A stretch of DNA of 64,000 nucleotides, from positions 3,226,501 through 3,290,500 of the forward strand of contig NC_135243.1 of the NCBI RefSeq assembly GCF_947623445.1, written 5' to 3'. Below the pieces are notes generated by a model. That model saw only the letters and a program-made list of their open reading frames with translations. It was not told the DNA's origin and did not search any database. The position numbers and the translations under genes are program-made. The stretch comes from Clavelina lepadiformis (Eukaryota > Chordata > Ascidiacea > Aplousobranchia > Clavelinidae). Below are positions 3,475 to 50,400 of this stretch, in pieces (position 1 is the stretch's first letter; the number at the start of each line of letters is the position of its first letter).

Positions 3475-4376
3475 TGTCCTTTATGACGTAACAATCTCAC
3501 CCTGACTTCCAGGTCCACCACCTGCATTATAAGAAGGTCAAGACGACCGGATATCTGCCATAAACAAACTTGTTACCAAATAATCATCTATATGACGTCA
3601 CAATAAAACATAACTTTCCCACCTTTTCAAACATATCTTTCCGGATCAGTGCTTCTTGTGTTGGTCATGTGATTGTGAAACCCACTGCGACCGTGCCAGG
3701 TTGGTCCCTGCAAAATCGCCACGTCATCATTACGTCACGCACAACGTCATTCATAAAACGAGAACTTACCGCTTCAGCTCCACCGGCGACAGTATCGTAA
3801 TAACCAAAGCTCTCATCACCAAAGGTCGTGTTGTTCATGCAACCCTGCGCCACAGCACACGCTATAAACGCCTTCATTATGATGTCAACGATCCTCTGCG
3901 ACGTGAGCACGTTGCCACCGACGACGGCCGCGTCATCCTTGGGGTCGAGAATGGACCACTTGAGTTTGTTGACGGGAATAGGGGCGAGGCAGCCCTGGTT
4001 AAGCGGGATGTCGTAGCCCACCATGCACCTGAGGCAGTAGATGATGACAGACTTGCTGATCGCTCTCGGCGCGTTCAACTTGTTTATCACCATAGGGGAT
4101 GTCCCTTCGAAATCGAATGTCGCGCTTCTCGATATGAGCTCCTGGACCAGGTGGATACCCTAAACAGAAAGCTTCGTTGAAATGTCTGTGATTGATGCAG
4201 CTGTGACGTCATAAAGACACTTACCTTCTGGTTAGCGGCAACTAGCGCTCTCAAGTCGGCCAGGTTGCCATGGAGATCGTGGGCCCGGCTGCAACTAGTG
4301 AATTCTCCTGGGAGCGTGAGAAACGCTGTTACTTCTATGAGGTAACAAGTAAAAACAAGTTCAATAGGGTTTAAAG

Positions 4377-22015: not shown

Positions 22016-22208
22016 ATTTCTTTTATAAAAGTGAATCGATGTGAAGAAGGAATTTTTATAAAAGTTGAGTAAATAATGTCTGTTTAAATTTCTGTTTAAA
22101 AATGAAACCTACTTACCATTATTACGTCAGCAGTGATTGCGCGGAGTGAGTATGTCGCCATCGCCATCGCCAACATCAACTAGCAACCGCTATAAATTAA
22201 AAATTAGG

Positions 22209-25200
22209 TTAAAAAATAAATTTCTGTGCAAAGTTCAAGTTGACACAAACATGACAAGATATAAAGAATACCGAGCCATGAAGCTGGTCAAGAACGAGTT
22301 GAATTTCTTGTTTCTCGCTCGAATTTGCGGAGATTCTTCCACCTTCGAAGCAACCTTCCATGCTCAGAACTTCTTCAATTTTAGCGAAAAATTCTGGTCC
22401 TGGAATGTCTTTGATTTTGTTGCCACCGATGTCCAACAATTTTACCTGCAGATGAAATGTTTGTAAACTACAACCTGGTGTATTGATGAAGCTAATATAT
22501 AACTACATACAAGTTAATATTACCATTAATTGGTTAATAACTAACCAGCACCACATGGTCAGATTTAGGCCTAGCCTACTGGTTCAACACAAATTCTTGG
22601 TTTTTGAATTAAATAGAAATAATTTTGAGCGGCCAATTAAAACCGGTATCGAGTATTAGTTGTAGAAACAAATCCTGATAATAAGTTTGCAAAAATATTT
22701 TCAGTTTTAAATAAAATGAAACTTTTCAGTTGACCCAAAAATTAACCTGTTCATGTCAGGCTAAAACTGATCCAACAAAATTTTGTCATTTTTTTATTAA
22801 AATGAAGGAATTTTAAGCGACCAAGTTTATCGCAGATTCCACATTCCTTGTAGATTCAAGTAATCACTAAACCGTCGCAAAATTATTCTGCAATTTTATA
22901 TAAATTAGCACAAAATATCCGACCTACACTGCCCAGTAATCTCAACAAACTGCCTTGAAAAATATCTTCGTACTAGCGATTATGACGTCATAAGAACAAA
23001 TGTAAACAATTCATTATGACGTCATATGCTGTTCTAAGCAAACGATAAAAAGTTGAATAAATCGTCAAACCTTTCCAGGCATCTCAGAGATCGCCGAAAT
23101 TAATCTTTCCACATCATCAGGGGAGAAGCAGTTCATCAGATAAAGCTTCTTTAACTCCTTTCGTTGTTTCCTTAAAACGTCACAAAAGATCGCGGCTTCC
23201 GATGATGACAATTTCAATAGATTCAGACTCATCTCTGTTGGAAAGCGCAGTGACGCCATATTGAAGAGTTCCATGTCGCTGGATTCGTTTAATTCGCATA
23301 AAAGCGAAATATATCTGCGTCTGTCGTCATCTAAGCAAACGTAATAGTTAATTATTTACCGGTTGTAGTTCGCCGCGTTATAGAAATAAATTTAAGACGG
23401 AAATTTTTCATGTTTAAGCACAAAGTCAAGTTGAAAGCGAAAACTTACTTTTCTTTAAATTATCTGTTTGGAACGAATTAAAAAAGAAGCAGTCATTTTA
23501 AACTGAAGATAAACTTAATACAACAACCAGAATTGATCTAAATGACATGTGGCCTATTTAGCCGGCAATTATTTTCACTTGAGTTACCGGCAGCCTACTA
23601 AGCTAGGCTCTGTACACTAGCACTGGCAATATGTTTGCAATAGACATGTAAATTACAAAACTTACCTTTACTTGGCCTAGTAGGCTGCTGTACTAGTCTA
23701 CCAGTGATTATGTGGAAATATTTCCCGGCTAAATAGGCCACATGTCATTTCAATCAAGTTTCACAAAATATTATCACACAAATATTTTCACAGCATCACC
23801 AGTCTGCCAGCAGCCTTACTGTACTAGGCCAAGTAAAGATAAGTTTTGAAATTCAACATAAATGTGTGTTCTGCTGCACATAATCCATGTCTATGGCAAA
23901 TAATGCATAACATGCACATGCAGTTTATTCAATTGTTCGCAGATTTAGGACAAAGTCAGAAAATAAACTTACCTGACCAATCATCCCACTGCAGTTTCTC
24001 AAAATCTACCAGCTGCGACTTTAGTGCTTCTGTCCAAATCCTCCTCTTTTCAGCAACATCTGGAAATAAATTATTATCAAGCTTAATACTGACAGGTGAC
24101 AAATATAGTCTAGGCCTAGACGAAATGGCTTGCAATAAAATGTAGGCTAGAATGCAGTGAATTGTACTAATTTTAAATATCGCACATTTTTTTGCATATA
24201 CTTGCTGTATACCACCAAATTTTCATTTTTCTGACTGAGTGGCTGCCATTTACTGAAGTTGCATTTTTGATTTACCAAACTGTGCGAATGGCTGCTCATA
24301 AAACAGACAATTATTTTATCGTTTTGATGCTGATTACTACAGTTTAAAACACTATTTTCATCCAAATTTGATAAACAGTAGTCTTCGAAATAGGCACAGT
24401 ATATATAATGCTAAAAACAAAAAAATGGGTTGTAGTAATATTTCCAGACTGCATGTTAAGAGCAGTTGCTGGAGGTTCTTTTATTTTATAATGGTTATAT
24501 ATAACTAGTACAACGCATTGTTTTAAATAATAAGCAAACTGTGCAGGAAACTCTTTTAATATAAAGTACATGGATCACGAACTGTCAGAGGTGGGCAGTC
24601 AGTACTTTGAAAGTACCGTCGTTAACGGTACTTGGTACTTGGCAATAAAGGATCCAACGGTTCTGGATTTGGTACTATTTCAAAAAAGTAGTCAGGTACA
24701 GTACTTCCTCGATTATCCGGCCGAGTGATCAGTGACTTTGGGAGGTGTCAACCTGTTCAGTGTTCAATGAACTGGTAGAAAAAATCAGAAAATTATTTTC
24801 TACTTGGTTCTTTTCTCCTTGTAGCCACTGCAGTGAACACATTGTGAACCGGTAGTAAAATGAACCTCAAAGTTATCAGCAGCTCCATCCTGCTATAATA
24901 CTAAGGCCCACTCTCATTAAAAATCTTACTGTACTTGTAGCTCATTGTTCAAAACTAGATCAACACTGATCAATGACCTGTATACCACCTAAAAGAAAAA
25001 TCTATCACACAATCATTTCAATTATGTCATCACAAGCAATAATTGGTGTGCCCAAACTCTGTTAAGGTTCGGTTTAACTTCTTTGTGATGTAACAAACTA
25101 ACCGACTAATTCTAGACTGGAGAATGCATTAATTGTTGCATTTCTACTAATTACAATTGTTGAATAAACAAGATGTCTCTATGGGTCCAGCAGCCCATCC

Positions 25201-28200
25201 TTCGTAATTAGTGTGAAGTGCCGAACTGCCGAAAAACGTTAATCTTCCCGCAAACAATCCAAGATTGATTCAATTTTTAGTAGATTTGCTGTTGCAAATG
25301 AAATTTAAGCGTAAATTTTTTGTAAACTGCTACATTTCGATCAGTTTTTTACCATAAAAGTGCTGAGTTATGACATTTTTCTGTACATTACTGTATTTGT
25401 TCTCTCTGTTTTTATTTCTATGATGTAAAAATACAAATTCAATTATCCGTTTTTTTTGTTTATCCGGTCAGATTTTTGAAAATATTGACCCAACTTGACC
25501 GGATAATCATGGAAGTACTGTACTTTGCCAGTACTCGGTACCAAACTACTTTTCGTACAGTGGATCATGTTACAAGTGCAACTTTTGCTGATATTATGGC
25601 CAGCTAAAGGTTACTTCAGGTCAAAAAATATGTGAACTGACTCTATGCAACTTTATTAGACATTCGTAGATTAAAAAAGAGACTAAAATTGAAATCAAGT
25701 TTCAATCAAAATCAATTGTTAAAAAACAAACTTCTGAAAACCTTGAAGTAATCATTTTAAAAGTACCAAGCTCTGGGACGAACTTAAATTTCTCGAAAAA
25801 AGTCATTCAGTACAGGGATTCGGTACTGTTCTCTTAAAGTAAGGATGGTATCGGTACTGAATATAGTACCGCGATACAATAATTTGGTACTATAGTACTG
25901 CTGTACTGCCCACCTCTGCCAACTGTACTAAATCTTGTTCAATAACCGATGCTTGATTGGTGGGGAATCATCTCTGAGGTCGTGTAAAAACTATCTTCTA
26001 AAACCATATTAGCCAAGAGAAATAAGCGAAATTATTACACTGCATGTTAATGCAGTATACTTCGTTTATTATGACTATCTTCAGACCAGACCATTTTGGT
26101 CACAATATCGGAATAGTCATAATAACCAAAGCTGCAAGCCTGATACAGCGCCATACACCAAGCAGTATCGACACAGTCAGAAACAAATTGACTAAACTTT
26201 CTAAAATCTCATACATTTCTTACATGGTGCGAAAGAAAACTCCCATGGCACAGTCATTCCTGTCACATTGCACAATTGACAAAGAAACATTGGAGGAATA
26301 AAATTGAAAAAGTGGTCGTAATACTCAAACACAGGTCATAGTAAACAGAGACATTTGTATGGCAATATTTGGGACTATATCAACATGGTCATATAAAGCG
26401 GGTAGTCATATTAAGCCAACTTTATTGCATATTTTTATAAATGTGTAGCACACCATATGGTGGCTATCATTTTTTACATCAGTGGGTAGGGGCAGCCAGT
26501 GTAAAATAACATAAGTGTTAGCCTAAACCATATTTCAGCTATAATATTTTCTGTTGGCCGAGACACCAAACAGAAACAGGTTTTGCTTACTTTAGTAGTA
26601 GTGCTGTAATTGATTTTGTAATAATAAGTAGAGGAGTACTGAATCAGTTTCAAAACCAAATTTTTGAAAAAACAATCGACACATTGCAACCAAACCATGT
26701 ATTATAGTATTGTAAACGTTTTTATTATACAGATGACTGTAAGTGTGCTTATGCTCCAAATTAGTTTATTCTAATTTTCTGCTAGTATGTTTAGTTGTGA
26801 TTTTCAATGTCAAAATACTTGTATATAGCAAAATGGCAATATAAATGACTTCCAGCTGTGACACAAAAACTTGTAAATTAGTAATTAAATTGCAATACAT
26901 TTGTTCTGTTTTAAATTTTATGAAATTTATATTCTTAGAATGACAACTCATGTGCAAAACAGCCACTGATGTATTCCACTACCACCTGCACTCAACCTCA
27001 GAGACATGCGCAACAAACACGATATCTATCTTAAGTGGCGACCATTCCACAAACATCACATGCATTTGTTTGACGTGAACGCCACCTTGTGCTGCTAGAA
27101 AAATGCTATCAAACTGCAACAGACCTGATTGAACTGTGTGTCAAACCAAACCTGATGAAAATCAATGAATAGCCTTGTTTAAGTACCGGCTTATAACAGA
27201 AGTTACAATGCTAAAACTGATCAATAGTCAACCCAAAAGTCAACCACAGACTCTTACTCCAGTAACAACTACAGAGTGATCACATGATTTGGCAATGGAC
27301 ATTGTTTATATTACTGCAACAATGTTTGTCATTATCCCTTAAAACAGAGTAAACATTGTATTCTGTGCTGCATTTGCCACAATGAGACACTGACAAAAGA
27401 AACACTTCATGCAACTTATATATGTATATTTATGGTCAGGGCTGGTCTTAGGCTATTGCCAGTGATTTAACCAACTTGGGCTCCATGCTGCTTAGTACCA
27501 AAACAGAAATAGCATTTCTTTGCGCAAATCACAGTGCTCTCAATTTGTTCTCGAAGTGTTTATTATCAATGTTATTATTTAACTCTTTCTCGAAAGAGAA
27601 TGTGAACTTGGTGAAAACATATCACAAAGCAAAAATTTGATGAGAGCTGATTTGCAAAGAGTTTATATTTGGTTAACGTTGTTATGAATATTATTTGATT
27701 AAGTTATTTCAAATTGGCAAAAAATGCCCACTATCAGTTTTTGCATTGGGTTCGTGCTTAGTAAGACCTGTCCTGTATACTATACAACACAAAAATGACA
27801 ATTTATGGACTGGCTGTGTTGAATGACTTGGATATGACAATGCACAAATTACAGTTAATGCCACGGAACTTACAAGCAATGTGCAAAAACAAATGTACCC
27901 TATATTGAGCCTTATACCACCCAAATAGATTTGTGTAATTCCGTTGATTCAAGTAATGTACAAAATGTTGTATCAGTGTTTGTGTAGCAATTTGTAATAC
28001 AGTGAAAGCTCATTAACTTGACTTCATTTCAATGGAAATTCAAACAATTTAAGGCAATTTAACCTTATAAAATGAATATAAACCGGTAATAGTAACTGAA
28101 GTGTACTTTTTGTTTCCCAGACCATAGTTAGCACTAATTATCTCAACATTAGTGAAAAAATCATCATCAGTAGAAATAAACATAAACACCATAGTGATTT

Positions 28201-31200
28201 ACTGATTTGATTCGGTAATGGGTTATTATAAGCTAGAAATTTAGCCTGTTCATCCAAAGTTGTCTAACTCAATGTGTTTTCAACTCAAAGATACGATTTT
28301 AACTTTAGCGAATCACATTTAATAACTTTAGCTGAAGGTTATACTCAAAATATGCAACAACAAATGAAAACAACTGTTATGTGAACAATTTAAGAAAGTA
28401 AACTAAGTGAGACAAAAGCAGTTCTAGAGCTCCACAACGCTAGTGTACAAAGCCTAGCATATAAGACTTAAACAGATATAGCAGTAGCACAGCAACAAAC
28501 ATGAGTGCTACATCTAATAACATCATCATGCTGTGTAATACTTCCACAAGAACAAATCACATCTAATTTACAAAAAAGAGTCATTGTAAAAGATGATAAA
28601 TGAATGGAACTATTATACCCCAGTCATGTGTTTATGGTTATTTGCAGCCAATTTTACCCGCCTATTATAACTGGAAGTAGGTTGATTGGTCCTTTTACTT
28701 TGTGCTAAAGGTTAACCACTTTTCGATGTTATTATTATGCAGTTGTGTTTAAGTTCTTGGACCTAAAAAAACAACGTCCATAAAAGCTTTTGTAAAATAT
28801 GGGCAGAGCTTTCACATTGGAACATTTCTGAAAGCAGTAACCCAGGAAATTTAGCTTGACGGTTATAACATCTATTATATGCAAGTTTTGCAATTTGTTA
28901 GCCGGTAGTTTGCTAAAATTTACAGTAGCCTAAAATGTGGGCAAAGACAAAGCAAGGCAAAAATGATTAAAAAGGATCGTAATTGCAGTTCTGTAGTTGC
29001 AAATTACACGAAAATGTGTTTACCGGTATCCTATAGCCTACATTGGCTAACTACCGTACTCAAACTACTCAGAAAACTATTCATATTTTATTTTACATCC
29101 TACCAAATTCTTTAGCCTACTATGTTTCTCATACACTGAAACATGCCGTAATCTTCGGCGACTTTTCTTGGAATATTACTAAGTTGTAGTCAGACATAAA
29201 ACGTAGGTTTTTCACATTTATGCTTATTACTGGTACTTTACCACAAGTTTCGGCTTCAGCATTACCCTTGTTCTATGGTGATGACGGGATTATTCAGACG
29301 CCACGTAAGCTCCATACCTCATTAAATTTGGTAGTTTCCATCTTAACTTCGCAACGTTTACTTTTAGAGTATAACTAATATTTTAAACAGTTGTGCAAAT
29401 AGCAGTCACAGTTAACTTCATCAATTGCAGGTCTGGATCAGTTTGATACAAAATGACAGCAATGAATCGATCACGTGACTTTGTTGTTATTTTGATTATT
29501 TTCACCGTAACCATTAGAGACGATGTTTCCATCAAACCTTTGAAAGTCTTAATAAATTCTTTGCTATGTGCTTCGTAGTATTTTAGGATTGATTTATAAT
29601 GAAAATAAAATCATTAAAATGAACAGTTATTTTTTACTCGATACCATTTAAAATTAAATTTTATTCTTTGCCGTTATATTATTGTGATGCACGTTTTAGC
29701 CTGCGAGGCAACATTTGCATGTTTTATTTGTGGTAATTATCATCGTAATTGTTTATATCTTTGCGACCACCTACGTCGGAAAAAATTTTCGTCACTCATA
29801 TTTAAGGCATAAAATAAAACGAAAAACATGTGATTGAATGGATACGTTGTTGTAGTATTATTGTAGAATTAGAAGATACGGGGTTGTCAATAAAATGAAC
29901 ATCATATTGACAAAGCTTGTCAAGTTGGGGCGAGCACAATAATATCATGACCCTTGCGACGGAATATTTCATCACCGATAGAAACGAAACTCATCCAAAT
30001 TTGGTCAGAAAACACAAGCTCTAACCTTATGACCATCAACTGTGAGTGTAGCTTAAAATTTATTGTTTTCTGCTGGCTTGTGTGCTTGGCATGAAAGAAC
30101 GCTGTGAACGCGCTTTAGAGTTGAAAAGTAAGATTTAAAGGCTTTGAGACTAATTTTTAATTCATGGTGATTTAAAAAGCAAAACTAGTGACTTGACTAA
30201 CTTTTTCTTAAGTGGGATAGATTGTGTTAGCGACATGTAGCTTACTCATTACACTGCATAACTCTTTACAACTATGCGCTTCGAAAAAATATGATCGAAT
30301 TTTACGGTTAAGTGCAATAATAATAAAGTAAACACAATAAAGTTAATGAACAATACATACCTGGAGAAAATTGATCATTCGGGAAAACTTTTTCATTCCC
30401 GGATTGTTCATGTGCTTTTTGCCTAAATACAAGGCTTGTGAGAAGTTAAAATTTTATGGTAGGCATACTTGCGATCCAAATGGCAATTGCAGGCTTTTGA
30501 AGTACGCAAAAGTTAGATGAAAACAACCTTGTACTTTCGGTTTCACTGTTGTCGGCTGCTGTGACCTGGTTGATGCTTGGATCTATGAAAGCATAAAGGT
30601 AGTTAATGAATATTCATTTCTTGGCGATAAATGAAAGAATTACAATAAAACGTGACTTAGCAAGCGAATTTGACATTGTCTTGACATACCTTTCATCATA
30701 TCTACCAGCAAGCCGCAGACAAATCTACGGATAACAGACCATTTTTCACTAGAGAAAAGCTGGTTGTCAACAAGGCCCTTAAACTCAATGAATGACAAGT
30801 TACTAATCATATGTTTAGCGGTGAAAAACTCCTGGTATAGCTGATGGGCGAAGAAATACTTCACATGGCCGTCAAACACGCGGCTGGTAGCAGTGAAATG
30901 GGCGTAAATGCCGACGACGATATCCTGTATCTCGTCTGGTTCAAGGCCAACTGCTCTGAGGTCGTCTCGTGTGATGACAACTGAAGACCTCATGGTAGCT
31001 TTGTAGGCAACTTCACTAAGCTGTCATATAAAATAAGTAATATCACGTTTTTGTTATCATTACAACTTTGGTTAATTAAAACTATAACAATCTACTGACC
31101 TGCCCCATAAGTAAAGTGATGTCTTGGTGTTTTGCGTGATTACTGCATCTCAGATTTTCCAACACAGTTGAAAAAACCCGAGTGGTTGTGTTGATTTCGC

Positions 31201-34200
31201 CAACATTTTTGGAAGGATTTAGACCTGCTGCGATTACCAATTGGAGTAACAATGGGTTAAAACACAACGAAAAGACAACTGGGGCGCTCTCAGAGAGATG
31301 TTTCCACAGCTTGTCGGCCGATTCACCCGAATAGGCATAGAATAATTTCTTCATACTCTCATAAGGGAGGTCACCAAGCAGGATTGTGGCATCAGGGCGT
31401 AGGGACTCAGGAAGTGCAATAACGCTGTGGGGCCTGGAGGTAAATATAAGTTTAACCTTTCTAAGGAAATGTTTGCAGCAAAGATTTGCAATTAGATCTG
31501 ATACACTTTGGGGAGTATCATATGACACTTTAGGTGCGTTCTTGTTGAACGACCAGTCGGCTTGATCCATTCCGTCAAAGAGCAGGAGACATTTCTTCTG
31601 ATTTTTTTTTACCCATTCCCACACGTATTCACAAGTGGCATCGTCCAGTTCTGGAAAATTATTATCTATCAGCAGTGTACGTAGCTTTAGCTTCTCGCCG
31701 TCGGGTAAATCCATAAACCTAGAGTACAAGCAAAAGTATTCTTGGGTCTTGGCCAGACGTTTCGACAACGTAGTCTTTCCGGATCCAGGGTAACCGACAA
31801 TTGCCGAGAATCGTTCGCTGGACTTTAATAAGTTGTCAAAGGAAACATTTCTATTGTGTTCCATCCCCTTCGGCTTTTCAGTTGACGGGGCATAGGTTTC
31901 ATGTTCAGGGACTGCACCTCCCTCGAAGAAAGAAATTTCACTGTAATTTGGATGAACAACTGGAATATCTGCGGCTGAAACTTTGATTCCTGCTTGTAGC
32001 CTGATGTCGTCTTCACGACGTTCAAATTGCAACTGGCAAACTTTTTTAATGGCTTCTTTCATTTTCCGATCTGATGACCGAATAAATACCAATTTAAATC
32101 TCAACATGTTAATTTTTCAAGAAATTTAACTAAGCATTTATCAATTATTCAATTGGAATTGATAAATATATTGCTTGTGTACTTACTTTTTTTGCCTGGA
32201 AATAGTTTTCCTAAAAAGTAAAATCCAACAACATTAAAACAGTAAGATTAAAAGATTATCTTTGTAACTTATAAGTATGTTATTTACTAAATAGCTGATT
32301 GAAACTAAATGCTCCATCGAATTACCAACACTACGACGATATTTCTGATGTAATTTGGATTACAGTACATATATTTGATGAGATAAACACTTACTCAGGT
32401 TTGTCATGAGTCGAGATTTTTGTTTCATATTGGTAGCATTGCTGGTGGAAAACCCTCTTTCTTGACCTGAAAGAACTTTCCAGTATTAAAATCTATTTTA
32501 CATCTTTTTTAACCTCAGCAATGCATACAAAAGAAAAACGAATATCATTAACTTAGTACGTTATCTAGTCAAATAAAAATCTTTTACCATTGAAAGGTGC
32601 TTTTATACTTGGAATTTCTTTGTTAGGTTCCATACGTGCTCTAGACGTTGATGGTTGATTGGATAACTGACTTCCTTGATCTGAAGTTGGTCAGTAGAAC
32701 AGCATTTTAAAGAGGAAAAGCACAAAATAAACGCTTATGTGTTACATATAACAATATTTTATATTTTTGAAATGTCTAATTGTCAGGAAATGTTAACAAA
32801 GTAATTGTATTTTGTGAACCTACTTTATAAGCTTAATTATAAACGTTTTTTAATTTTGATAAACTTAAAATCACCAACAAATTTTTTAATAATTGAAATT
32901 AAATTAATTGCTTTATAGAAGATGCTAGTTGTATTAAGCAGGGTGTTGGTGTTTATGCTTACTGAGGAAGCAATACCTGTATTTAATGAAGCATTCAAAG
33001 ATGGAGATGTTTCTGGGCTGGAATCTAACTGGCGTGACGTTCTTGGTAGATCAGAGTTGGCTGGTGTGTTTGCAGCTTGAGAGAACATTGCTTGCTTGGT
33101 TTGGATACCACTTGAGTTTTCTAATAAAACAATTTTGTTTTGACTGAATTACGATTATTTTCAGTGCAACAAAACAAGCAAACGAGTATTGTGGATAAAA
33201 TTTTGCATTTAAACCATCATCATAATGCTTATTTTGATTCAATAAGGGTTTAGTTGTCTGAGCCGCAAGATTGAACTTTGTTGTACAAGTAACAACACCC
33301 TGGTAATGAAATCTTTAAGTTCTACGGTACAGCCTAATGGTAACAAATTTTACAGCCTAGTAATAATAATTTTTCATCATCACCAACTACAAAACAGAGT
33401 TAGATGTAATTTGATACGTTTTAAAGGAATTCAGCTGGCACCTGAGCAATAGATCTGGATAAAGTTATTTCTATAAGTTAAATGATATTATTATTGTGAC
33501 AAGATCTTACATATCATTTTGCTTTAAATATTGATGAACTCCATGTTTTGAAGTGAAATTATTACTGTTATTTTTGGGAAAGCTTCAGTGTAGTTGGCGC
33601 CATTCAAGTAAAAATTCAAAAGATAGCTTCGATATTAATTATATGCTGCCAACAGTTGTTTAGTTGAAATATGAAAATGCGACTGTAGGCAATAAAAACG
33701 ACAGGTCAACGTCTTGTAATTCACATTTTGTTCCCGTGTTAACAAATGAAGAAGCAATGACATTGTTCATTGATCTCTCTTGGTCACTGACTCACTTGTT
33801 TCTCCACTGCTACAGTTTGTGTTAATTTTAAATTCTCAATGTTTTTCGTTCTGTTTCCGCTTATAGGAATTACAGACAATGTGTTGCTAATGTTGGTTGA
33901 CACACAGCCTAAGAAGTGATGTGTTATAGGTGTTATGAATTTCGTTTAACTAAACATAGGTTTTATTAGTTAACAAAACATGTTTAGTACCTATTAACTG
34001 CTTTATAGTATATAATCTAATCATTACCTGAAGAAGATACCTCAGTGTTCAAAGCATCGGTTTGATTGGTTAATTCTGAGATATCTGTTTTGGACTCAAC
34101 ATGTGGATTTGCTTGGATCGGTTGCTTCGGATGGGTCACATCAGGTGGGTCTAGAAATTAAAAAATGAGCAAATATTACCATAGAAACAACAGAAATATC

Positions 34201-37200
34201 TGAATTAAGATTAACATTGTACAATATAAAAAGAACTTATAAACAATAACAAATTCAGTTAATTTTTTACTGATAAAATCGTGGTCTTTTTATTTCAACT
34301 TATGAGTTTAATTACCTATTTCCTTGATAAGTTTGTCAAAGTTATCCTGAAATGATTCTTTGCTAAAATCGTAGTAGAGTTTTCCCGACACCAAAAGAGC
34401 TTTTGATAAAAATTGTAAAATTAAAAATAAAATCTGTGGTGAAAGCTGGCGATAAAAATCAATTCAGTAAAGAATATCGAAAGGTAAAAAGAGAAAAAAC
34501 ACATAAACTTACATATATTATTAGTTAAAGCAAGAGCAGAATATATAGCACTCTTAAAGTTAACATTCAATTGATTTATCACCACAAGCTTTCGTATACT
34601 TGAGTTTGCGTCTTCTGGTGTAGCAATTATGATTAATAATGAAAATAACAATACTAAATATAATGTTACCATTCAAACCTTAAGCAACATCCCATTTTGT
34701 GACATATAAGTCAATTTAAAAAAATCAACGAGTTATAGGCATTAAAATGCGTTGAAAACAACCAAGCACAGATTAAAGATATAACAAAATGCATACCTGG
34801 CCAGCCATCCATTTTATAATTGTCTTGGGTGATAATGGGTATTATACGTTTTCTCTTGTCAGCAGCAAGTTTGCCTTCCCTTTGGCAGTTTTCACTGAGT
34901 TTATAGTTTTCAGACAGAAACATGAGGACCAAGTAAGCGTTGTCAACAGCTTCATACATTTTGTCATAAATGTCTCCTCTCATCTCGTTTTTATCAATCC
35001 ACACTTTGTAACCAGCGGCAGAGAGTTCATCGGATATCTGCAAAAGTGCGAAAAAATTAAACTAGATTGTTAGGTTAAGTTTGTGAGTAGCCAATTTGCC
35101 ACTCTTCTACTTTCGTAATCTTTCTAAAACCAACAAACGGTTTCGGTTACACTGGTCAACAGCCAATTTGCTTCTGAAACGAATGAGGTCAGTCTTGGCT
35201 AATTTGGGGTCGCTGATCACGAATATCAACTTTAAATTTGTTGATTAGCTCTAGTTTTTGAGATATGGCACCATGCCAAAATGTGCTTTACTTTCTGAAG
35301 CGGAAAATAGCGTGCGTTTTTCTGTTGTACAGTAGCTTGGATCGGTCAGATAGAGTTGCGCACTTAATATATTTGTTGGAAGGTAGATGACGTTTCTATT
35401 CATATTATTTTTATTTTGACATGTTTGAGTTGGGTTGTTTGCTTGCTTCTTTTGTAAAAACTTTATGTGTTTAGTCTTAACTGCTCTTTCTGCATTTGCC
35501 TCGTAAATGCATAAAAAATGCAGACAATTTCTCTTACATTTGTGGTGAAATAACTTTTTCCAACACAAAAGCGAAGTATAACGGCTGTGGTCAGGAAAGC
35601 AAACCTTGTATTCAACTTGTATTTTGGATGCAAAGTTGGTGATCAGGACAAGAGTTGGGCCCCTCACATATGCTGTAACTCCTGTGGTGCAAATCTTCGG
35701 CAATGACCAAATGAAAAAAAAAGAAAATGTATGCCCTTCGAGAGAAGAGAGAAGAACCTACTGACCATATTAGCGATTGCTACTTTTGCATGATCTCCCC
35801 GGTTTGTAAAGATTTGTCAATATAGAAGAAGCAGAGCATCCAATACACAAATATTCCATCTGCAATTCGTTCCGTACTACAAGGAGAATTACTTCCCGTT
35901 CCTGACGCAACTAAGGAATTCACGTTATGTTACGTTGAAACATATCTTCCAAAGAACCACACCTTATAACTCCAAATGAATGGCACAATCTTATCCGGGA
36001 TTTGGAACTACCTAAAAGGCTTTAGACTTCAGCTATGGAAACTTCTGGCAGAATCATCATCTTCGAAGACGGTGAATTTGATCAAGTGCCATTTGGCAAA
36101 GAGAAAATTGCATGGGAAGCGTTTAAGTTGCTGGCCACAAAATTCTTGGGGAAAAAAAGAGCTGACAACTACACAGAATTGGTGTCCAATCTCATTAAAG
36201 CATACAGATGCATGGAGTGCAATATATCACTGAAGATACACTTTTTAGACTCGCACCTGGTTTTTTTCCACCAAACTGTGGAGATGTTAGTGATTAGCAT
36301 GGTGAGCGATTTCACCAATGCATATCTACAATGGAAAAGAGGTACCAGGGAAAACAGAACCAATCAATGCTTGCTAACTTTTGCTGGATGATATCTAGGG
36401 ATGCTCCATTAACCGTATTCAATCGACAGGCCAAAAAGGAGAAGAACAGATAAAATAGATTAGAAATTTATATTTGACAAGTGACAATTATTTGTTGCAT
36501 ACGCTATGCTGAAATATAAACGCATGCAATTATTACACTGTTTGTAGATTGTTACTGTTCTGTTCAATAAAGTGCAACAGGGCTTGCCATATGTAGATCA
36601 ACATACAAAAATAAAAAAAGTTTTTATCTTTTAAACTAGAGCTAATCAGCAATTTTAACCAACATTTTTGGATTCAGCGTCCGAAAATACATAAGAATCA
36701 GTTGTTTTCTTATCGGAAGCAAAAAATTTTTGAAAAATTGTTGACCAGTGTTATTAGCAATTTGCAAAATAACTCTAAGGTGAAAACGGAGTAGAGCATT
36801 TTATAACATCCACGTCATCTAAGTGATGGTTTTGCTGATATTTAGGGTATGTTTATGAAATAAAACTTTCTTCCTGACCCTAGCACAAATATTTTAATTG
36901 AGAGTCATTTTTTGATAATAACACTGGTCAACAAAAATTTTGTTGCATTTCTACCAACACCTGTTCTTACCTATTTTGGGGGCGCTGAATCCGAATCTGA
37001 CCTTAGTTTTTTTCTGCAAGGTCTAGATTTTTTGCAAATCGAGATTTTTTATTTTTTTTTTACTAAATTCAAATTTTCTGAAAATTACATGATTTGTCAA
37101 ATGAAGTTCTTGCTTATAGTCGAATAACCAACCTCAAAACAAAAATAGGTTCCCAGAAATTATTGTGTTACCACTAGCATTTGTATTTACAGACAATTAG

Positions 37201-40200
37201 GCACCAAATGTTTGAAAAAATGTAACAAAGAACATTTTTCCGGTAAAATACATGTAATAAGCGATTTTTTTTTTGCAAAATGACATTGAAAAGAATGATG
37301 GCAATCCATTAACTTCTGCGTTTCTACGCTTTTTGAGTTTGCTGCTTTAATTTTTGATAAAGCAGGGAAAGTGTAAAGAAGATGATGAAAGGAAACGACT
37401 CGTTGTGAGGATTTAGAGCTTTAACAAACTGTGTAATGAGACCTAGTTTGATGTGCAGGGGCGGAAAAACAATTTTGTCTCTGCTTACGATTGGGTTGTG
37501 TGTTACATTAAGCATGCCAACTTGAAATGTTTCACGTAAGGGCCACTCCTTCTGTGTCCAATGTTTTTCACATGCTCTGCTGTCCCACATGCATAGAGAA
37601 CATAGAAATTTAGTGTATTCTTTTTTCTGACCTAGCAGAAAACTAACCATTTTGAGGTTAACACAAATGATCCTGTTGTGCTCATGTTATCTAAGCAAAT
37701 CCATAACAATTCTGATGTCATCATGCTGTTCCTTTAAGACAGTGGAGTGACCAACTGGAACAGCTTCATAAAAATTTTCATTGTGTAAAAGGACACACTT
37801 GAGGCTGCGCTTGGAACTGTCCAAAAACAATCGCCATTGTTCTGGATTATACGAGGAGATACCCAATTGTTCGAGAAGACCAGGTATATCGTTGCAATAT
37901 ACCAGCTTATTTTCCTCTGAAAAATAGGGAAGAAAGAGTTCTTCTCTTTTTCGAAAAAAAGAAACCTTTACAGATTGATCTAGAACCTGTTTTTCCTTGA
38001 GTCTGGAGGCTAAGAGCTGAGCTTCTTGCTTGGACAAATCTAAATCACGTACTAAGTCATTCAGTTCTGATTGATTAAACGGCTGAACAGCTACTCTGGT
38101 TTCACCAGAAGAGTGTTCAGATTCTGTATCTGTTCTTTTATAATCCATTTCCACTACCTCTTCCCTTTCCGATTCAGTTTCCTCATCTTCGGAAAATGTA
38201 AAACCACTAAAGACTGGAGGAGGGAATCTATCAGAGTGCGGAACAGGTCGTATAGCTGATGGTATGCTGGGATAAGAATGCATTAGTCGGCTCTTCCTGC
38301 CAACACCTTTCATATTTACCATGCAAAAGTAGCAGTCAGTCGTGTGATCTTGGGGTTCACGCCACACCATTGGAATGCAAAAAGGCAGACTCTTCCGCTT
38401 TCCTTTTGTTCAGTCTCTGAGCATTTCTTCGCAGTTATGGCACACAATATGTGGAGACCATTTCTTATCTTGATCGCCAAGATGGATGCCAAAGTAAGCT
38501 CTGTAGGTAGGCTTCACGAACGATGTTATATTTCATCTTTGACGAAAAAAGCGTGTACACAGTTACACACCACTGATATAACAAAATAAATCAGGTTTAT
38601 TTTTGCATTTACGAGTGTAAAATAGAGCTTATAACCTATCCTACAGCATCTATCCGCAATACCTCACTATAATCAAACTGCTTAGCTTCTTTAAACGCCC
38701 TTAAACAGCAGTAGGCTACAACTTAAAAGAGCTGAAAGCTTCTATCTGAAACACTGGTACTGTACCATACAGACAGCTCACACTAAATATGAGCTAGAAA
38801 CGAAAAAATTTAAATTTTCGAATGCATAAAAACTAGAGCATGCATAAAGAAAATGATTGCAGATTTGATATCAGCATCCCAAAATTGTGTAGACTCAGTT
38901 AAAAAATCTCATGCAACAAAAAAAAAATTTGTTGACCAGTGATTAATTCTATTAACATTTCGTGTACTTCGTTAAAACATGTATAGCCTACTGAGAATAT
39001 AAAATATATTTACAAACCTTATGAACGAGATCCTTTGAATCATTCCAGTTATAACTGATCATTATATGCTGGTTGCCTTTGTTGTCATCCTGGTGTTGAT
39101 TGGCCCCAGGTCCACAAGGTGAATTTGTTGCTTGTGGATTATTAGGTTCTGCAAGAAGATGTAATATTTAAACAAAGATGCATCGCTCTTGCGCCGCTGT
39201 TGGAGAATAGAAACACGAAGCAATTAGTTAGAGGGCGACACAAGTAAAATAGTTCAGGAACTGATTAGCTTTTAACTCGAACTCAACTCAATTATGTTGA
39301 ATACAATGTTTTGTAGCAGAAATAAATAATTTTGAACCAAATTTAACGTTTGAAAGTGTGCTTTAGTCACCAGGTGAAGATAAAATTTGTTTAGATTTTT
39401 TTAACGTAAACTAATCTTTTTTCTAGGTTATTCTTAACTTTTTTTTTAATTTCATTTAAAACATTTTTTCCTGTTTACAATATTTGAAAAAAACAAATTC
39501 ACACAAAACTTTGGCAGAGTTTGATTTGAGTGAGATTATTAAATCTACGTATAGGTTAAACTCGAGTAACATTTTTAAACCGATGTATAAATAAAACTTT
39601 AAAAAGGTGCAATGTTGCACACTTCCAAAACATACCTGCAGATGAGGTCGTTGGTGGATTGGCTATTGAGGGACTGGTACTTGGTGCTGAAGTTTGTGAA
39701 GTTGATGCTGAAATTGGTTGTTTAGGTTGCGTAAAACCGGTTTGCTCTAAGATATGAACACATTGTATAAAACATGAAGCTTTAGTTGAAAGCAACAAAT
39801 AATAACTTGCAAATAAAACTTCATATAATTTTAAACCGTTGATTTTAGCATCTTCAGGAAAATTTGCAAATATATCAGATGTTGCCAAGATGGACAATTA
39901 CAAGCCAAAACAAACGCAGCACACAATAATGATGACTGTAACAATGGTATAGGCGTCTCAGATCATTTAGCAAATTGCTTCTTACACAATGTTTGCGAAT
40001 GTTGATTGAGGTATTATTCATCAACAACCACGTTGCATTTTAACATACGCTTGAAAGTTATGCCCCACATCCCCACAAAACAGAATTAACAGATTCACAG
40101 ATGTGTAAAATCCAATCATGTCCCAAACAACAGCAAGGACTTTTACTTTGAGTTAATAAATAAGCAAACATGATTAAATTAACTTACCTAATACACAACT

Positions 40201-41796
40201 CGTTTTCTTTTCTCCACGACATATTGTTGGTTGTTTGTCGACGTTTCCAAAAGCTGCAATAAAACAGAGATTAAAATTGTCTAAATTCAAATTATTGAAA
40301 CCAGTTTAATGAAGATAGATATAAGCACAATGAATGTTTGCAAAAGTAAAACAAATACAAAAACATTAAACTTTATTTTAAAGATAATATTTAATTGTAC
40401 ATTATTGCAGTTTCTAAAAACATAAGTGATACATTTTAAATAAATTCAAACAGAAATTGAACGTATCAAATATACACCTTGTGTTTCGGATTTTAATTAA
40501 CTGTAGAATTTGTAACCTTTTTTAAACAAAACATGATTAATACATACAGTATTCACTGTTTTTTGTCTATAATCTAATCATTACTTGTAGAAGGTATCTC
40601 AGTGTTCAAAGCATTGGATTGATTGGTCACTTCTGAGATGTCTGTGTGGGGCTCAACCTGTGGATTTGCTTCGATCGGTTGCTTTGGATGGGTCACATCA
40701 GGTGGATCTAGAAATGAAAATGTCAACAAACACTACCAACCGTACAAATGAAATAACTAACGTATGAAATAGAAAGACAAATAATAATCTAAACAAACAG
40801 TTCGCAGGTTGGCAGATAATACAAAAGCGGCATATTTGAATCAGATTTTAAACAAACGTTAAAACATTGAATATGCACCTTGTGTTTGGGTGTTTGATTG
40901 AGGAGGATCAAAGGGATTATTTACCGGATCCTGCTGCTCAATGCTTGGTTCAAATCTTTTTGCAGAATCTTTAAAATATATGGTAAGCTCAATGAGAAAG
41001 AAAAACAATGTGATACCATAAAGAAAGACAATAAGCACTTTACAAGGAAAGGTTGTACGGTCTTATAATAATCACCTAAAGGATTTATTTGTTTCTCTTT
41101 AACTTGTGTTGGTTTTATATTTTTCAAGTCCCTGATGTATTTTTGCTTATATTCTCTGTTGTCTTGGTATCGTCTTTGATCGTGATGTTGGTATTGTCTT
41201 TCATCGTGGTGATAAATTTTAGGAGCATAATTAATCATGACTGTCCCTGTGTAACCACAAAAGTTAAGATTTTCATGTATAAAAAGGCATCACAATAATA
41301 TGGAAACATAATTTGATAAATGCAACTAATAGGTTTTAGGTATTTGAAATCAATTGTGTGCCTACGTATTCAGCAAAACATCTTCATAAAACTTACCAAC
41401 TCCGCTTTCAGCCAATTTGCTTGTAAGCTCATTCCATCCTGGATCGATTCTACTTAAAGCACTCTGAGAAGCTTCAGCATTTTCCATTGTTTGCAAGACT
41501 TGATTTCCTGCATCTGCAGAATCTGGATTTTAAGCAAAGAAAAAATGAAAAAATTTATTTTCTATCAAATTTAAAGGAAAACATCAAAAAGTTCCTATTA
41601 TTAATTACAGCAAAGACAAAAACTTAATCGTTTTAATCTCAAATTACTCACCAAGAGGCATTCCCGCTTGCATTGCAACAGCACGTGATGTTCCAGGTTG
41701 TTCATCACTTTCACCTGATGAGCTCTCTTCATTGTTATCAGGTTGTACAAGTTGAGGTTTATCTTCGGTTAATCTTTGCTCTTCTGGCTTCGACAT
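22209..41796 (-). CDS. TIR-NACHT-LRR (NLR-type) receptor-like protein, 22 exons
   Basis: Exons from the ATG: 41652-41796, 41397-41522, 41076-41246, 40879-40968, 40585-40707, 40188-40253, 39636-39746, 39018-39148, 34797-35037, 34316-34399, 34028-34150, 32977-33120, 32588-32680, 32395-32466, 32187-32210, 31100-32070, 30690-31020, 30528-30582, 30361-30422, 23973-24059, 23071-23330, 22209-22445. All junctions keep phase, giving 3,747 nt or about 1,248 residues. Residues 1-300: hydrophilic linker, no known domain. About 305-428: TIR domain from HIMISYNWND through KVWIDKNEM and CQREGKLAA to KLYYDF. About 430-580: Ser/Thr/Pro-rich linker. About 581-905: NACHT, with Walker A GYPGSGKTT near 675, Walker B LLLFDGMD near 745 and sensor LIFTSRP near 790. 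Then an NLR helical region (FFAHQLYQEFFTAKHM) and LRR-like C-terminus (LDIGGNKIKDIP). By family knowledge NLRs are cytosolic STAND-type sensors that oligomerise on activation. The last exon's C-terminal tail is the least certain part. Confidence 0.87.
23534..23850. repeat. Fold-back (inverted repeat) sequence in an NLR intron
   Basis: A nearly perfect arm AATGACATGTGGCCTATTTA (extending to about 45 bp) around 23534-23580 is repeated inverted at about 23720-23765. The inner segments (GCCTACTAAGC / GGCCTAGTAGGC) also pair. A third, partly inverted unit continues to about 23850 (TACTTGGCCTAGTA against TACTAGGCCAAGTA). The transcript could form a long hairpin. It lies in the 643-nt intron between NLR exons 20 and 21 and is likely a foldback/MITE-type element. 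Confidence 0.75.
24586..25918. mobile_element. Nonautonomous hAT element in the 6.3 kb NLR intron
   Basis: A 1,333-bp element with ends CAGAGGTGGGCAGTCAGTAC and ...GTACTGCCCACCTCTG, bounded by 8-bp sequences CGAACTGT and CCAACTGT (7 of 8). The CAGAGGTGGGCAGTA-type terminus with an 8-bp duplication is a familiar hAT signature. No transposase is recognisable inside. The rest of the intron 24060-30360 shows nothing else I can name. Confidence 0.85.
25919..30360. other. Remainder of the large NLR intron
   Basis: This is AT-rich intronic sequence between the hAT element and the exon at 30361-30422. Short frames such as 26044-26301 and 27709-27924 have no family resemblance or splice context. No element boundaries were found. 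Confidence 0.5.
31100..32070 (-). CDS. NACHT NTPase exon of the NLR gene
   Basis: A single 971-nt exon encodes nearly the entire nucleotide-binding module, typical of animal NLR genes where NACHT sits in one large exon. The Walker A lysine and threonines (GSGKTT), Walker B (LLLFDGMD, with the extra acidic residue after the DG pair typical of NACHT) and the TSRP sensor arginine are all intact, so ATP binding is expected. It enters in phase 1 from a 24-nt micro-exon and leaves in phase 0 at ...LLMGQ, continuing into the helical exon at 30690-31020. Confidence 0.92.
34316..39148 (-). CDS. TIR domain exons of the NLR gene (39018-39148, 34797-35037, 34316-34399)
   Basis: Three exons make one TIR domain. 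The first ends ...DSKDLVHK with the beta-A strand ISYNW; the second begins ISDELSAAGYKVWID (alpha-A/BB loop) and contains MFLSENYKLSENCQREGKL; the third gives LLVSGKLYYDFSKESF. The glutamate in NCQREGKLAA (about residue 375) aligns by eye with the catalytic glutamate of SARM1 and plant/bacterial TIRs, so NAD hydrolysis is plausible but inferred. The 3.98 kb intron between the first two exons contains two related transposons. Confidence 0.85.
35150..36750 (+). mobile_element. DNA transposon with CACTGGTCAAC ends, copy 1
   Basis: A 1,601-bp element with inverted ends CACTGGTCAACA... / ...TTGTTGACCAGTG and a 3-bp direct repeat TTA on each side, suggesting the CACTA/CMC group. Plus-strand relics belong to a transposon-derived protein family repeated in many invertebrates: a zinc-ribbon-like start (CIKNADN, DCYFCMI, IPSAIR) and then a C-terminal part (GKEKIAWEAFKLLATKFLG, CNISLKIH, MEKRYQG, NFCWMISRD). 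The central domain is missing and the frame is interrupted, so it is an internally deleted, inactive derivative. It lies in the intron that splits the TIR domain. Confidence 0.75.
36922..38941 (-). mobile_element. DNA transposon with CACTGGTCAAC ends, copy 2 (opposite orientation)
   Basis: A 2,020-bp element with the same termini as the neighbour 171 bp away, inserted inverted. The minus-strand ORF at 37687-38370 (227 codons) plus 37324-37650 encodes the N-terminal and central parts of the same protein family: VWREPQDHTTDCYFC, IPSAIRPVPHSDRF, FLDSSKRSLKCVLLHNENFY, LLGQKKEYTKFLCSLCMWDS and LPPLHIKLG-like FPPLHIKLGLITQFVKAL. The conserved Asp in LFLDSSK and the CSLCMWDSR cysteines suggest a DDE/RNase-H-like transposase, which is inference. 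The two copies keep different parts of the protein. Flanking trinucleotides (TAA, ATT) do not match. Confidence 0.75.
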
Positions 41797-47420: not shown

Positions 47421-50400
47421 AGTTCATAGGAGTGGAAGTCATTTCAAAGTTTCTCTGTTACGTCACAATGCAAATTTTGTTTTCTCTTAATGCACAAACC
47501 TCAAGTTGATTTGGAATAAATGTTGATACACAAAAACTGCCACTGAAGGCGACTGAGCCAAAATCTATGGCAAAAGACGATATTATTTGATGTTAAGTTG
47601 TCAGAAGTTCGGGATTACAGTGCAACTACTTTGTACGTGACGCAAAAAAATATCTTTTCAGTAACTTTAGAAAAAGGAAAACAAAGATGAGGAAAAACTT
47701 TTCATCAGGTCAAAGGTCGTGAAAAATAAAAATCCGCTTCAACAAATTTGACAAACAAAATTGCACTTGCTAATAAAAAGTTAATTATTGAAATTAATAA
47801 GTCGCTACGATGTTTAACCTAAAATGCCCTCGACCATAAGTTCAAGAGCACGATGTCAATGCGCTTATTGCTGAGATTGGAACACGAAAACACTCCCTCG
47901 TGCAGATAACGTCGCTACCTAGCGGTGTTTACAAAGAGATGATTGGTCATCGCTAGAAGGAGCTCCATACCCGCCGCCACCAGGAGATTTGAGATGAAAG
48001 ATGTCCTGGGTGATAGAAATAGGAAGAAATGACCACAGCAAAAACAGAACGTCGTTTTCATCAAAACAAAATCAACTATCTCTAATTAATCTCTGTCCTT
48101 GTGACGTAATAGAAAGACTTACGCCTGGGTTGACGACGACAAATTTTTTGGCTCCCAAGTTAACGATAGGTCCTTTATGACGTAACAACAGGTTCTCACC
48201 TCGACTTCCGGGTCCACCACCTGCATTATAAGAAGGTCAAGTTTAGTGAAATTTGAGCAGATTCCCCACCAGAGGTCGTGCGCTGGTGATGAGTCATATT
48301 TAAGGTTTATGAAGCAAAATGGTCAGAACTTTCGTAATATCTCTCTCATCCTCGTGACACCGGTTCCTACATCGCCGCTTTTTCATCTTCCAAGATTATC
48401 AAATATTTCATCACAAACTGGTTATAAGTGGGTACACGGGGAATCCCTCTTACCATCAGCTCCATAGGGTTGGAAAACCCTCCTTTCGCTCAACACTGAC
48501 AGGGTTAAGTTCTTTCGAAAAAGAATCTCCCTCAAAACCCCGTCCCCGCCTTTATAACGCCCCTCTCCGCCAGTGCCCGGGAGAAGCCGGAAGCTTTTCA
48601 GGAGAACCGGATATCTGCCATAAACAAACTTGTTACCAAATAATCAACTTGATAACGTCACAATAAAATATAACTTTCTCACCTTTTTTCAAAAATTTCC
48701 GGATCAGTGCTTCTTGTGTTGGTCATGTGAGTGTGAACCCCACTGCGACCGTGCCAGGTTGGTCCCTGCAACATCGCCACGTCATTATTACGTCACGCAC
48801 AACGTCATTCATAAAACGGAGAACTTACCGCTCCAGCTCCACCGGCGACAGTATCGTAATAACCAAAGCTCTCATCACCAAAGGTCGTGTTGTTCATGCA
48901 ACCCTGCGACGCAGCACACGCTTTAAACAACTTCATTATGACGTCAACGATCCTCTGTGACGTAAGCACGTTGCCACCGACGACGGCCGCGTCATCATCG
49001 GGGTCGAGTATGGACCACTTGGGTATTTGGAGGTGGATAGGGGCGAGGCAGCCCTGGTTAAGGGGGATGTCGTAGCCCACCATGCACCTAAGGGAGTAGA
49101 TGATGGCAGACTTGGTGATCGCTCTCGGCGCGTTCAAGTTGTTTATCACCATAGGGGATGTCCCCTCGAAATCGAACGTCGCGCTTCCCTCCTTCGAGTC
49201 GATCTCCACGCGGAGGTTGATCACTGATCCGTCGTCCATTTTGTCCGACGCGCTGAGTACGCCGTCCATTGTCATGGAGACGTCGCGCAGCAGATTTCTG
49301 ACCGCGACCTCGGCGTGGTGTTGGATGTGTGCCATGTAAGCTTGGACAACTTCCAAACCGTAATTTGATATAAGCTCCTGGACCAGGTGGATTCCCTAAA
49401 CAGAAAACCTCGTTGAAATGTCTGTGATTGATACAGTTGTGATGTCAGAAAGACACCCACCTTCTGGTTAGCGGCAACTTGTGCCCTCAAGTCGGCCAAG
49501 TTGTCATGGAGATTGCGGGTTCCGCTGCATCCCGGGAATTTCCTTGGTGATAGCAGAACGGCCGTTACATCTGTGACGTCAGAGGGAAAATCAAATTTGC
49601 CAACATTTGCAACAGATAATTATAATTTGTATTAAAGAAATTCTTGGGCTACTGCAAAACTAAGTACACCATGGACCATAAATGGACCAATGAAATTTTC
49701 TGCAAACACACCTTTGATAGGTTTTTGGTGAGCTGAACAACAACTGAAAACCAAATGTTTTTGCAACAGATGTGTTGAAATTTTGAACCAGATGTTATTT
49801 ATAAATACCGAAAAAATAAAATCACCTTTTTCTTGAAAAATTCCATCCTTGACCAGTTTGAACGATTTAAAGACAGCGCCTTCGTCATTTATCGACGTTG
49901 AGTTTGACGGCATTGAACCTGGCATGATGCCACCGACGTCGGCGTGGTGGCCGCGGTTTGCCACGAAAAATATCGGCTTCGTGTGCTCAGGGATGAAAAC
50001 CTGGTGTGTAGTTGGAAATAATGAAGCCATGTTGCATAATGTTGTGAGAAATATTCAGGAAATTTCATATGATATAATACTAATAAAACAAATTATTATT
50101 ATGATTCATGAAAATAAAATCATGATGGAAATACCAATTGTCACAAGGGTCACGTGTATTCATGACCATTCACGTGAAAAAAAAACTTTTGATCAGTAAT
50201 ATGAAACGGAGTGGTTACGATTATTTACATGAAATGACAACCGACAATCATTAAACTGACTTTTTAGAAAACCAGAAACCAATTCATCATTTCACATAAT
50301 AACTACCATGAACCTTTTCAGCGTCATATGATATGATATAGCCCGTCATTCACAACATTATCACATAAATCACAATCACACCCCAGCATAAATCACAATC

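Follow-up and report, generated by a model that had tools for sequence, protein, structure and literature searches.

Gene Architecture at the Locus

The window, a stretch of 64,000 nucleotides of chromosome 4 (C4:3226501-3290500) from the sea squirt Clavelina lepadiformis, carries on its minus strand a gene modelled between positions 41796 and 22127 as 23 exons with GT/AG introns, closed phases, and a single terminal stop. The predicted product of 1223 amino acids comprises, in order, a leader, a TIR domain, a linker, a NACHT domain, and a short ribonuclease-inhibitor-like LRR. Exon ends were chosen by inspection to keep phase and GT/AG, which makes the open frame in part a product of the modelling, and paralogue loci are for that reason taken as the independent test of the model; an automatic exon scan of the window retained only six pieces. 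A candidate exon near 33900 was omitted, a hand-set exon pattern there having found nothing. The first-pass annotation of this DNA had described 22 exons in consistent phase encoding a protein with an N-terminal TIR; the consistent phase stands, with 23 exons instead of 22, and the TIR is present, but about 275 residues precede it.

All features of the gene lie on the minus strand. The leader comprises three exons (41796-41652, 41522-41397, and 41246-41076; span 41076..41796) that supply the start codon and, in the third, the conserved MINYAPKIYHHDERQ exon; Pfam gave no match for this region, and although its MINYAPKIY stretch prompted the idea of an amyloid-like role, none is claimed. Three low-complexity spacer exons follow (40707-40585, 40253-40188, and 39746-39636; span 39636..40707), all of phase 1-1 in the splice model. 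The TIR domain is assembled from (i) exon 1 at 39018..39148, which contributes strand A (HIMISYNW) and is found in the same form in paralogue loci; (ii) exon 2 at 34797..35037, the core with the NCQRE glutamate, which alone scores 59.9 bits against TIR_2 over 74 residues; and (iii) exon 3 at 34316..34399 (ALLVSGKLYYDFSKESF...), placed by the splice model and the joined TIR_2 match. The three exons joined reach 90.8 bits and cover profile positions 1-122 of 122, and in the whole protein TIR_2 spans residues 276-396 (E 7.9e-24, 84.9 bits), over the Pfam cut-off.

Five linker exons, again all of phase 1-1 in the splice model (34150-34028, 33120-32977, 32680-32588, 32466-32395, and 32210-32187; span 32187..34150), lead to a NACHT exon at 31100..32070 with the P-loop GYPGSGKT. 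NACHT is matched by this exon alone (E 2.1e-19) and by residues 639-798 of the whole protein (E 2.1e-18, 67.2 bits against a cut-off of 26.7), whereas NB-ARC reaches 14.8 bits in the whole protein, below its cut-off of 23.5; as to the switch domain, the plant-like plan proposed in the first-pass annotation does not hold. The post-NACHT exons of the model (31020-30690, 30582-30528, and 30422-30361; span 30361..31020) give NOD2_WH at 15 bits, below cut-off, and the C-terminal exons with the short LRR and the stop lie at 24059-23973, 23463-23449, 23330-23071, 22445-22272, and 22189-22127 (span 22127..24059). The LRR is the weaker part of the proposed TIR-NACHT-LRR order, of which TIR_2 and NACHT pass their cut-offs: no Pfam LRR family reached cut-off against the window exons or the whole protein, LRR_4 remaining below it, and the short, weak repeat region is recognised by phmmer alone, with the C-terminal 199 residues matching a ribonuclease-inhibitor chain (E 1.7e-7) and NLRP1 chains (E about 0.005).

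Between TIR exons 1 and 2, the intron holds two transposon-like inserts with CACTGGTCAACAA-type ends (window 35160-38941), the far end of the second being recognised by eye; one carries an open frame of 240 residues (37687-38409) for which no Pfam family passed its cut-off, and the compact paralogue L069 has neither insert. Elsewhere, at 12969-13502 of the minus strand, the window holds one exon that matches 7tm_2 (E 5.1e-15), from a seven-transmembrane receptor of the secretin family.

A Tandem Array on Chromosome 4

The genome searched is a 209.06-Mb assembly of 95 contigs. The search for paralogues suggested by the first-pass annotation revealed a tandem cluster: the NACHT exon has at least 108 matches in the genome, of which at least 53, the window gene included, fall within a 3.4-Mb stretch of chromosome 4, and PF13676 has at least 77 TIR_2 matches, at least 29 of them on chromosome 4 below 4 Mb. 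As only the best candidates are scored, each part may be more numerous than counted, and a gene without a match may still have the part. The third leader exon has at least 56 matches, at least 51 on chromosome 4; genes share it whether or not they have a TIR match, and it also occurs beside NACHTs of chromosome 7. Among the matches listed, a leader match lies no more than 12 kb 5' of 48 of the 53 array NACHTs, and a TIR lies shortly 5' of 27 of the 53, in each case on the strand of the NACHT. By composition, again among the matches listed, the 53 genes comprise 26 with leader and TIR, 22 with a leader and without a TIR match, one with a TIR and without a leader match, and four with neither. 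Direct reading of two TIR-less genes, L072 and L071 (the latter to 1.4 kb before its NACHT exon), showed no TIR exon between leader and NACHT.

The array bears directly on whether the TIR and NACHT exons belong to one gene. A NACHT follows on the same strand within 9.1 kb 3' of 27 of the 29 array TIRs, and within 4 kb of 25; none of the 29 chromosome 4 TIR matches below 4 Mb contains a stop codon, and 52 of the 53 NACHT matches are stop-free. An in-phase NACHT acceptor is present in all 21 TIR-bearing loci examined, the window copy among them, and in 16 of these the last TIR exon lies within 1.5 kb 5' of the NACHT exon. The same in-phase linker exon recurs in 17 of the 21, the other four being the window's own class, with differing linker exons that the pattern did not fit. 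In compact copies about 0.7 kb separates the last TIR exon from the NACHT exon, with a single in-phase linker exon; L069, where the distance is 693 bases, can be read continuously from its start codon into the NACHT by way of leader, TIR, and linker. This spacing and the single linker exon make it very likely that TIR and NACHT are encoded in one transcript.

That the TIR and NACHT exons form two neighbouring genes is thus extremely unlikely. It could be argued from the two of 29 array TIRs without a NACHT within 10 kb 3', among the matches listed, and from the many TIRs elsewhere in the genome that lie far from the NACHT matches compared, in a comparison covering 67 of the 77 TIR matches and, beyond chromosome 4, a subset of the NACHT matches; the short distance in L069 and the recurrent linker exon speak against it, as does the position of the leader, which precedes the TIR in 26 genes and the NACHT directly in the 22 genes without a TIR match, so that leader and NACHT bracket the TIR. 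For the predicted protein, a TIR-NACHT-LRR architecture in one animal gene is supported, less strongly so for the LRR.

Decay of the window copy within the array is very unlikely as well. The two inserts in one intron are what such a copy might show, and the array is repetitive, many of its co-amplified oxoprolinase exons being interrupted by stops; nevertheless, the frame is open through 23 exons, and the NACHT is 99-100% identical over 323 residues to three other copies, each with a TIR.

The oxoprolinase (Hydantoinase_B) exon pieces co-amplified with the NLR array lie in the window at 3665-4159 and 48805-49395, on the minus strand. Among the matches listed there are 66 in the genome (56 on chromosome 4, four on chromosome 5, and six on chromosome 1); those on chromosome 5 occur among NACHT matches at 0.68-1.17 Mb, those on chromosome 1 at 2.5-3.9 Mb, and many contain an internal stop.

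Contrasting Divergence of the TIR and NACHT Halves

Divergence was estimated by simple Nei-Gojobori counts on 14 genes (91 pairs), drawn from 17 TIRs and 30 NACHTs extracted, where 27 linked pairs are known; L029 was excluded, its exon 3 not fitting the pattern. Between the window gene and the 13 others, the TIR shows dS 0.05-0.11 and dN 0.015-0.039, and the NACHT dS 1.6-2.1, near saturation, and dN 0.21-0.23, values that point to strong purifying selection on the NACHT. The mean dS across the 91 pairs is 0.062 for the TIR and 0.381 for the NACHT. At the DNA level, window and L069 are 84-91% similar in the main blocks, introns included, with one 64-base block at the 5' end at 75%; the similarity ends about 90 bases past the last TIR exon and returns at 70% in the NACHT exon. 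On these estimates, the TIR-bearing genes compared combine a young, near-identical leader and TIR cassette with old NACHT halves, a pattern read as homogenisation of the leader and TIR half by gene conversion or unequal exchange.

The joining of TIR to NACHT looks older than the present TIR copies of the array. Chromosome 7 preserves the same order, all on the minus strand, with leader at 944188 (weak, E 0.007), TIR at 941842, and NACHT at 937969; the TIR match has two counted stops flanking an open core of 82 residues, and the divergence of this core from that of the window TIR, dS about 1.2, is the ground for the suggested age.

Mapped onto a NACHT tree that covers 30 of the 53 array genes, TIR presence requires six changes (five to six over bootstrap trees, at least three being forced by well-supported branches). 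Both old NACHT clades include genes with and without a TIR, and the TIR label is only modestly more clustered than shuffled labels (41 of 500 shuffles as low). The contrast extends to NACHT genes that hardly differ from each other, one having a TIR match and the other none, for example those at 3257600 and 1723449 of chromosome 4, which are 97% identical. By this reconstruction, the TIR is gained or lost repeatedly across the array.

Spacer exon 40707-40585 resembles linker exon 34150-34028 (DPPDVTHPKQP...), and the pair flanks the TIR cassette; one DPPDVTHPKQP spacer occurs in the stretch read of the TIR-less L071. Exchange between two such spacer exons could delete the TIR. A different origin of TIR-less receptors would be splicing, with the three TIR exons skipped so that one locus yields receptors with and without a TIR, the latter acting via the leader. 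The three exons sum to 456 nucleotides and run from phase 1 to phase 1, which makes their removal frame-neutral, and the 22 array genes with a leader and without a TIR match, among the matches listed, would fit a TIR-less form; however, the array already encodes the two forms in separate genes, which makes splicing superfluous as a source of the TIR-less one, and an optional cassette of this kind is considered unlikely.

Class and Putative Catalytic Residues of the TIR Domain

A phmmer search of the joined TIR against the PDB returned 14 matches up to E 1, all weak (best E 5.7e-4), each named TIR protein, ADP-ribosyl cyclase, RPS4, Cat1, molecular chaperone Tir, or SARM1, with neither TLR nor MyD88 among the 14. 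The profile of seven Clavelina TIRs gave 48 matches, likewise weak (best E 3.2e-6), led by Cat1, 3h16, RPS4, two SEFIR chains, tir-1, and SARM1, with Toll-receptor-related 2 (E 0.09) and TLR1 and TLR2/15 (E 0.44-0.54) lower down. The control, a TLR-type TIR from the same genome represented by one 79-residue exon (L001), ranked TLR1, 2, and 6 highest (E 9e-14), ahead of TIR-STING and TLR10, and further down IL-1 receptor-family chains and MyD88, with Roq1 (E 1.1e-5) among its 42 matches and SARM1 absent. Since this control also matches plant TIRs, as the Roq1 match illustrates, sequence affinity separates the classes only by rank; by rank, and with weak scores, the window TIR appears nearer to the NAD-cleaving TIRs of SARM1, bacteria, and plants than to TLR TIRs, which upholds its description in the first-pass annotation as enzyme-type.

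The alignment of the NCQREGKLAA glutamate with SARM1, asserted in the same annotation, is likewise borne out: the residue (E71) pairs with E642, in the chain numbering of the solved structure, in the alignment and in a profile comparison that places it at the SARM1 KE with probability 90.7. It is invariant in the nine aligned rows and in all 17 array TIRs extracted; the strand-B Asp is present in the same nine rows and the strand-A Ser in those covering it. The glutamate is not specific to enzyme TIRs, because the TLR-type L001 also has it (SAWCQYE). The Trp of the WxxxE motif lies four residues before the glutamate in SARM1, Cat1, 3h16, and RPS4; at this position the window TIR and the 17 array TIRs extracted have Asn, and the remaining Clavelina rows that were inspected have either Asn or His.

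In the portion of PMC11374754 covered here, W204A is reported to inhibit the NADase of AbTir and the matching change of W240 in TcpC to be without effect; the same source credits Manik et al. with the finding that the Trp is strongly conserved in TIRs making cyclic ADP-ribose and less so in non-catalytic or non-cyclising TIRs. As one change inhibits and the other does not, the Asn weakens the NADase reading only in part. If NAD+ is cleaved, the replaced Trp would make plain ADP-ribose a likelier product than a cyclic one. NADase activity of the window TIR is plausible, and the suggestion that the receptor may signal by cleaving NAD is accordingly left in an intermediate position, favoured by the enzyme-class affinity and the aligned glutamate, and weakened by the Asn and by the glutamate of the TLR-type TIR.

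The same residues admit a reading in which the gene is as modelled and the TIR is a non-catalytic scaffold, NACHT-driven clustering recruiting TIR adaptors or other partners through TIR-TIR contacts. The Asn or His in place of the Trp would suit it, as would the weaker conservation of this Trp in non-catalytic TIRs, which according to Manik et al. (per PMC11374754) is shared by TIRs with non-cyclic products; TLR-type TIRs, moreover, are encoded in the genome (L001). On the other hand, the affinity for NAD-cleaving TIRs exceeds that for MyD88 or TLRs when set against the TLR-type control, and the glutamate, strand-B Asp, and strand-A Ser are retained, which leaves the scaffold a tentative alternative with the odds against it.

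Proposed Mechanism and Relation to Known Systems

The preferred reading is a working cytosolic receptor of leader-TIR-NACHT-LRR order whose clustered TIRs act on NAD+, to which a probability of about 0.5 is attached. The C-terminal part would sense a microbial or cellular signal, the NACHT would oligomerise with nucleotide exchange and bring the TIRs together, and the clustered TIRs would then act as enzymes on NAD+, presumably by hydrolysis to ADP-ribose rather than to a cyclic product. Different sensor bodies may gain, lose, or come to share one homogenised signalling head by recombination around the phase 1-1 exon cassette. A broader proposal, put forward with some doubt and at less than even odds, is that of a plant-like TIR-NLR system in a chordate, in which an enzymatic TIR head, as a recombining cassette transferred nearly intact onto the old, diverse NACHT-LRR sensors of a large array, would let many sensors feed into a single death or alarm response that consumes NAD and needs no TLR adaptors.

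Plant TIR-NB-LRR receptors comprise a TIR, a nucleotide-binding switch, and an LRR. RPS4 and Roq1 share with the Clavelina gene this order of TIR, switch, and LRR and an enzyme-class TIR with the aligned glutamate; they have an NB-ARC switch and the Trp of WC..E, whereas Clavelina has NACHT and NC..E. SARM1 has ARM-SAM, not NACHT-LRR. The TIRs of SARM1 and tir-1 resemble the window TIR as animal enzyme-class domains with the glutamate, the strand-B Asp, and the strand-A ISY, although in the Clavelina TIR both the Trp before the glutamate and the Arg-Arg after ISY of SARM1 are replaced, the latter by Asn-Trp in the window copy. L070, a 395-residue open frame considered as a possible Clavelina SARM1, was set aside as membrane-receptor-like by eye.

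The contention that a TIR on such a receptor is unusual for animals is overstated; the plan is not new there, animal TIR-NACHT genes having been listed since 2008 (PMC2575513, in the part covered). That source describes amphioxus TIR-NACHT genes, together with TIR-[NB-ARC]-WD40 genes, and tabulates four TIR and 49 NACHT proteins for Ciona intestinalis. The amphioxus genes are likened here by description, not by sequence, as invertebrate chordate TIRs joined to NACHT; the part of the source considered mentions neither LRR for TIR-NACHT nor tandem cassette, whereas Clavelina has the cassette and a short, weakly recognised LRR. In Cassiopea xamachana, TIR is given as the commonest domain found with NACHT (PMC8260672, in part), a like combination in a cnidarian. 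Ascidian NLRs are said to be without an N-terminal domain, as NACHT-LRRs or NACHT only (PMC11508797, in part); the Clavelina gene resembles them as a tunicate NACHT-LRR and differs by its TIR.

The literature searched, partially covered and with most subscription papers outside its scope, concerned animal NLRs and TIR with NACHT, and yielded no tunicate TIR-NACHT gene and no functional study of an animal TIR-NACHT gene. Within it, the apparently new elements are the tunicate array, the near-identical leader and TIR cassette on old NACHT halves, and the repeated gain or loss of the TIR. The locus is a compact, many-copy chordate example with built-in controls in the form of nearly identical NACHT genes, some having a TIR match and others none, and makes testable both NLR signalling in animals by NAD cleavage, as in plants and bacteria, and the swapping of signalling heads in receptor arrays.

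TIR Domains Elsewhere in the Genome

A second cluster, at 22.4-23.9 Mb of chromosome 5, comprises at least 18 TIR_2 matches, the nearest NACHT match among those listed being 0.92 Mb away. On chromosome 6 (19.13 Mb), TIR_2 exons are followed within one locus, L023, by Fibrinogen_C exons on the same strand, a candidate single gene. At 9.0 Mb of chromosome 7, a TIR locus related to the chromosome 5 cluster (L025) is followed, on its own strand, by a Kelch exon.
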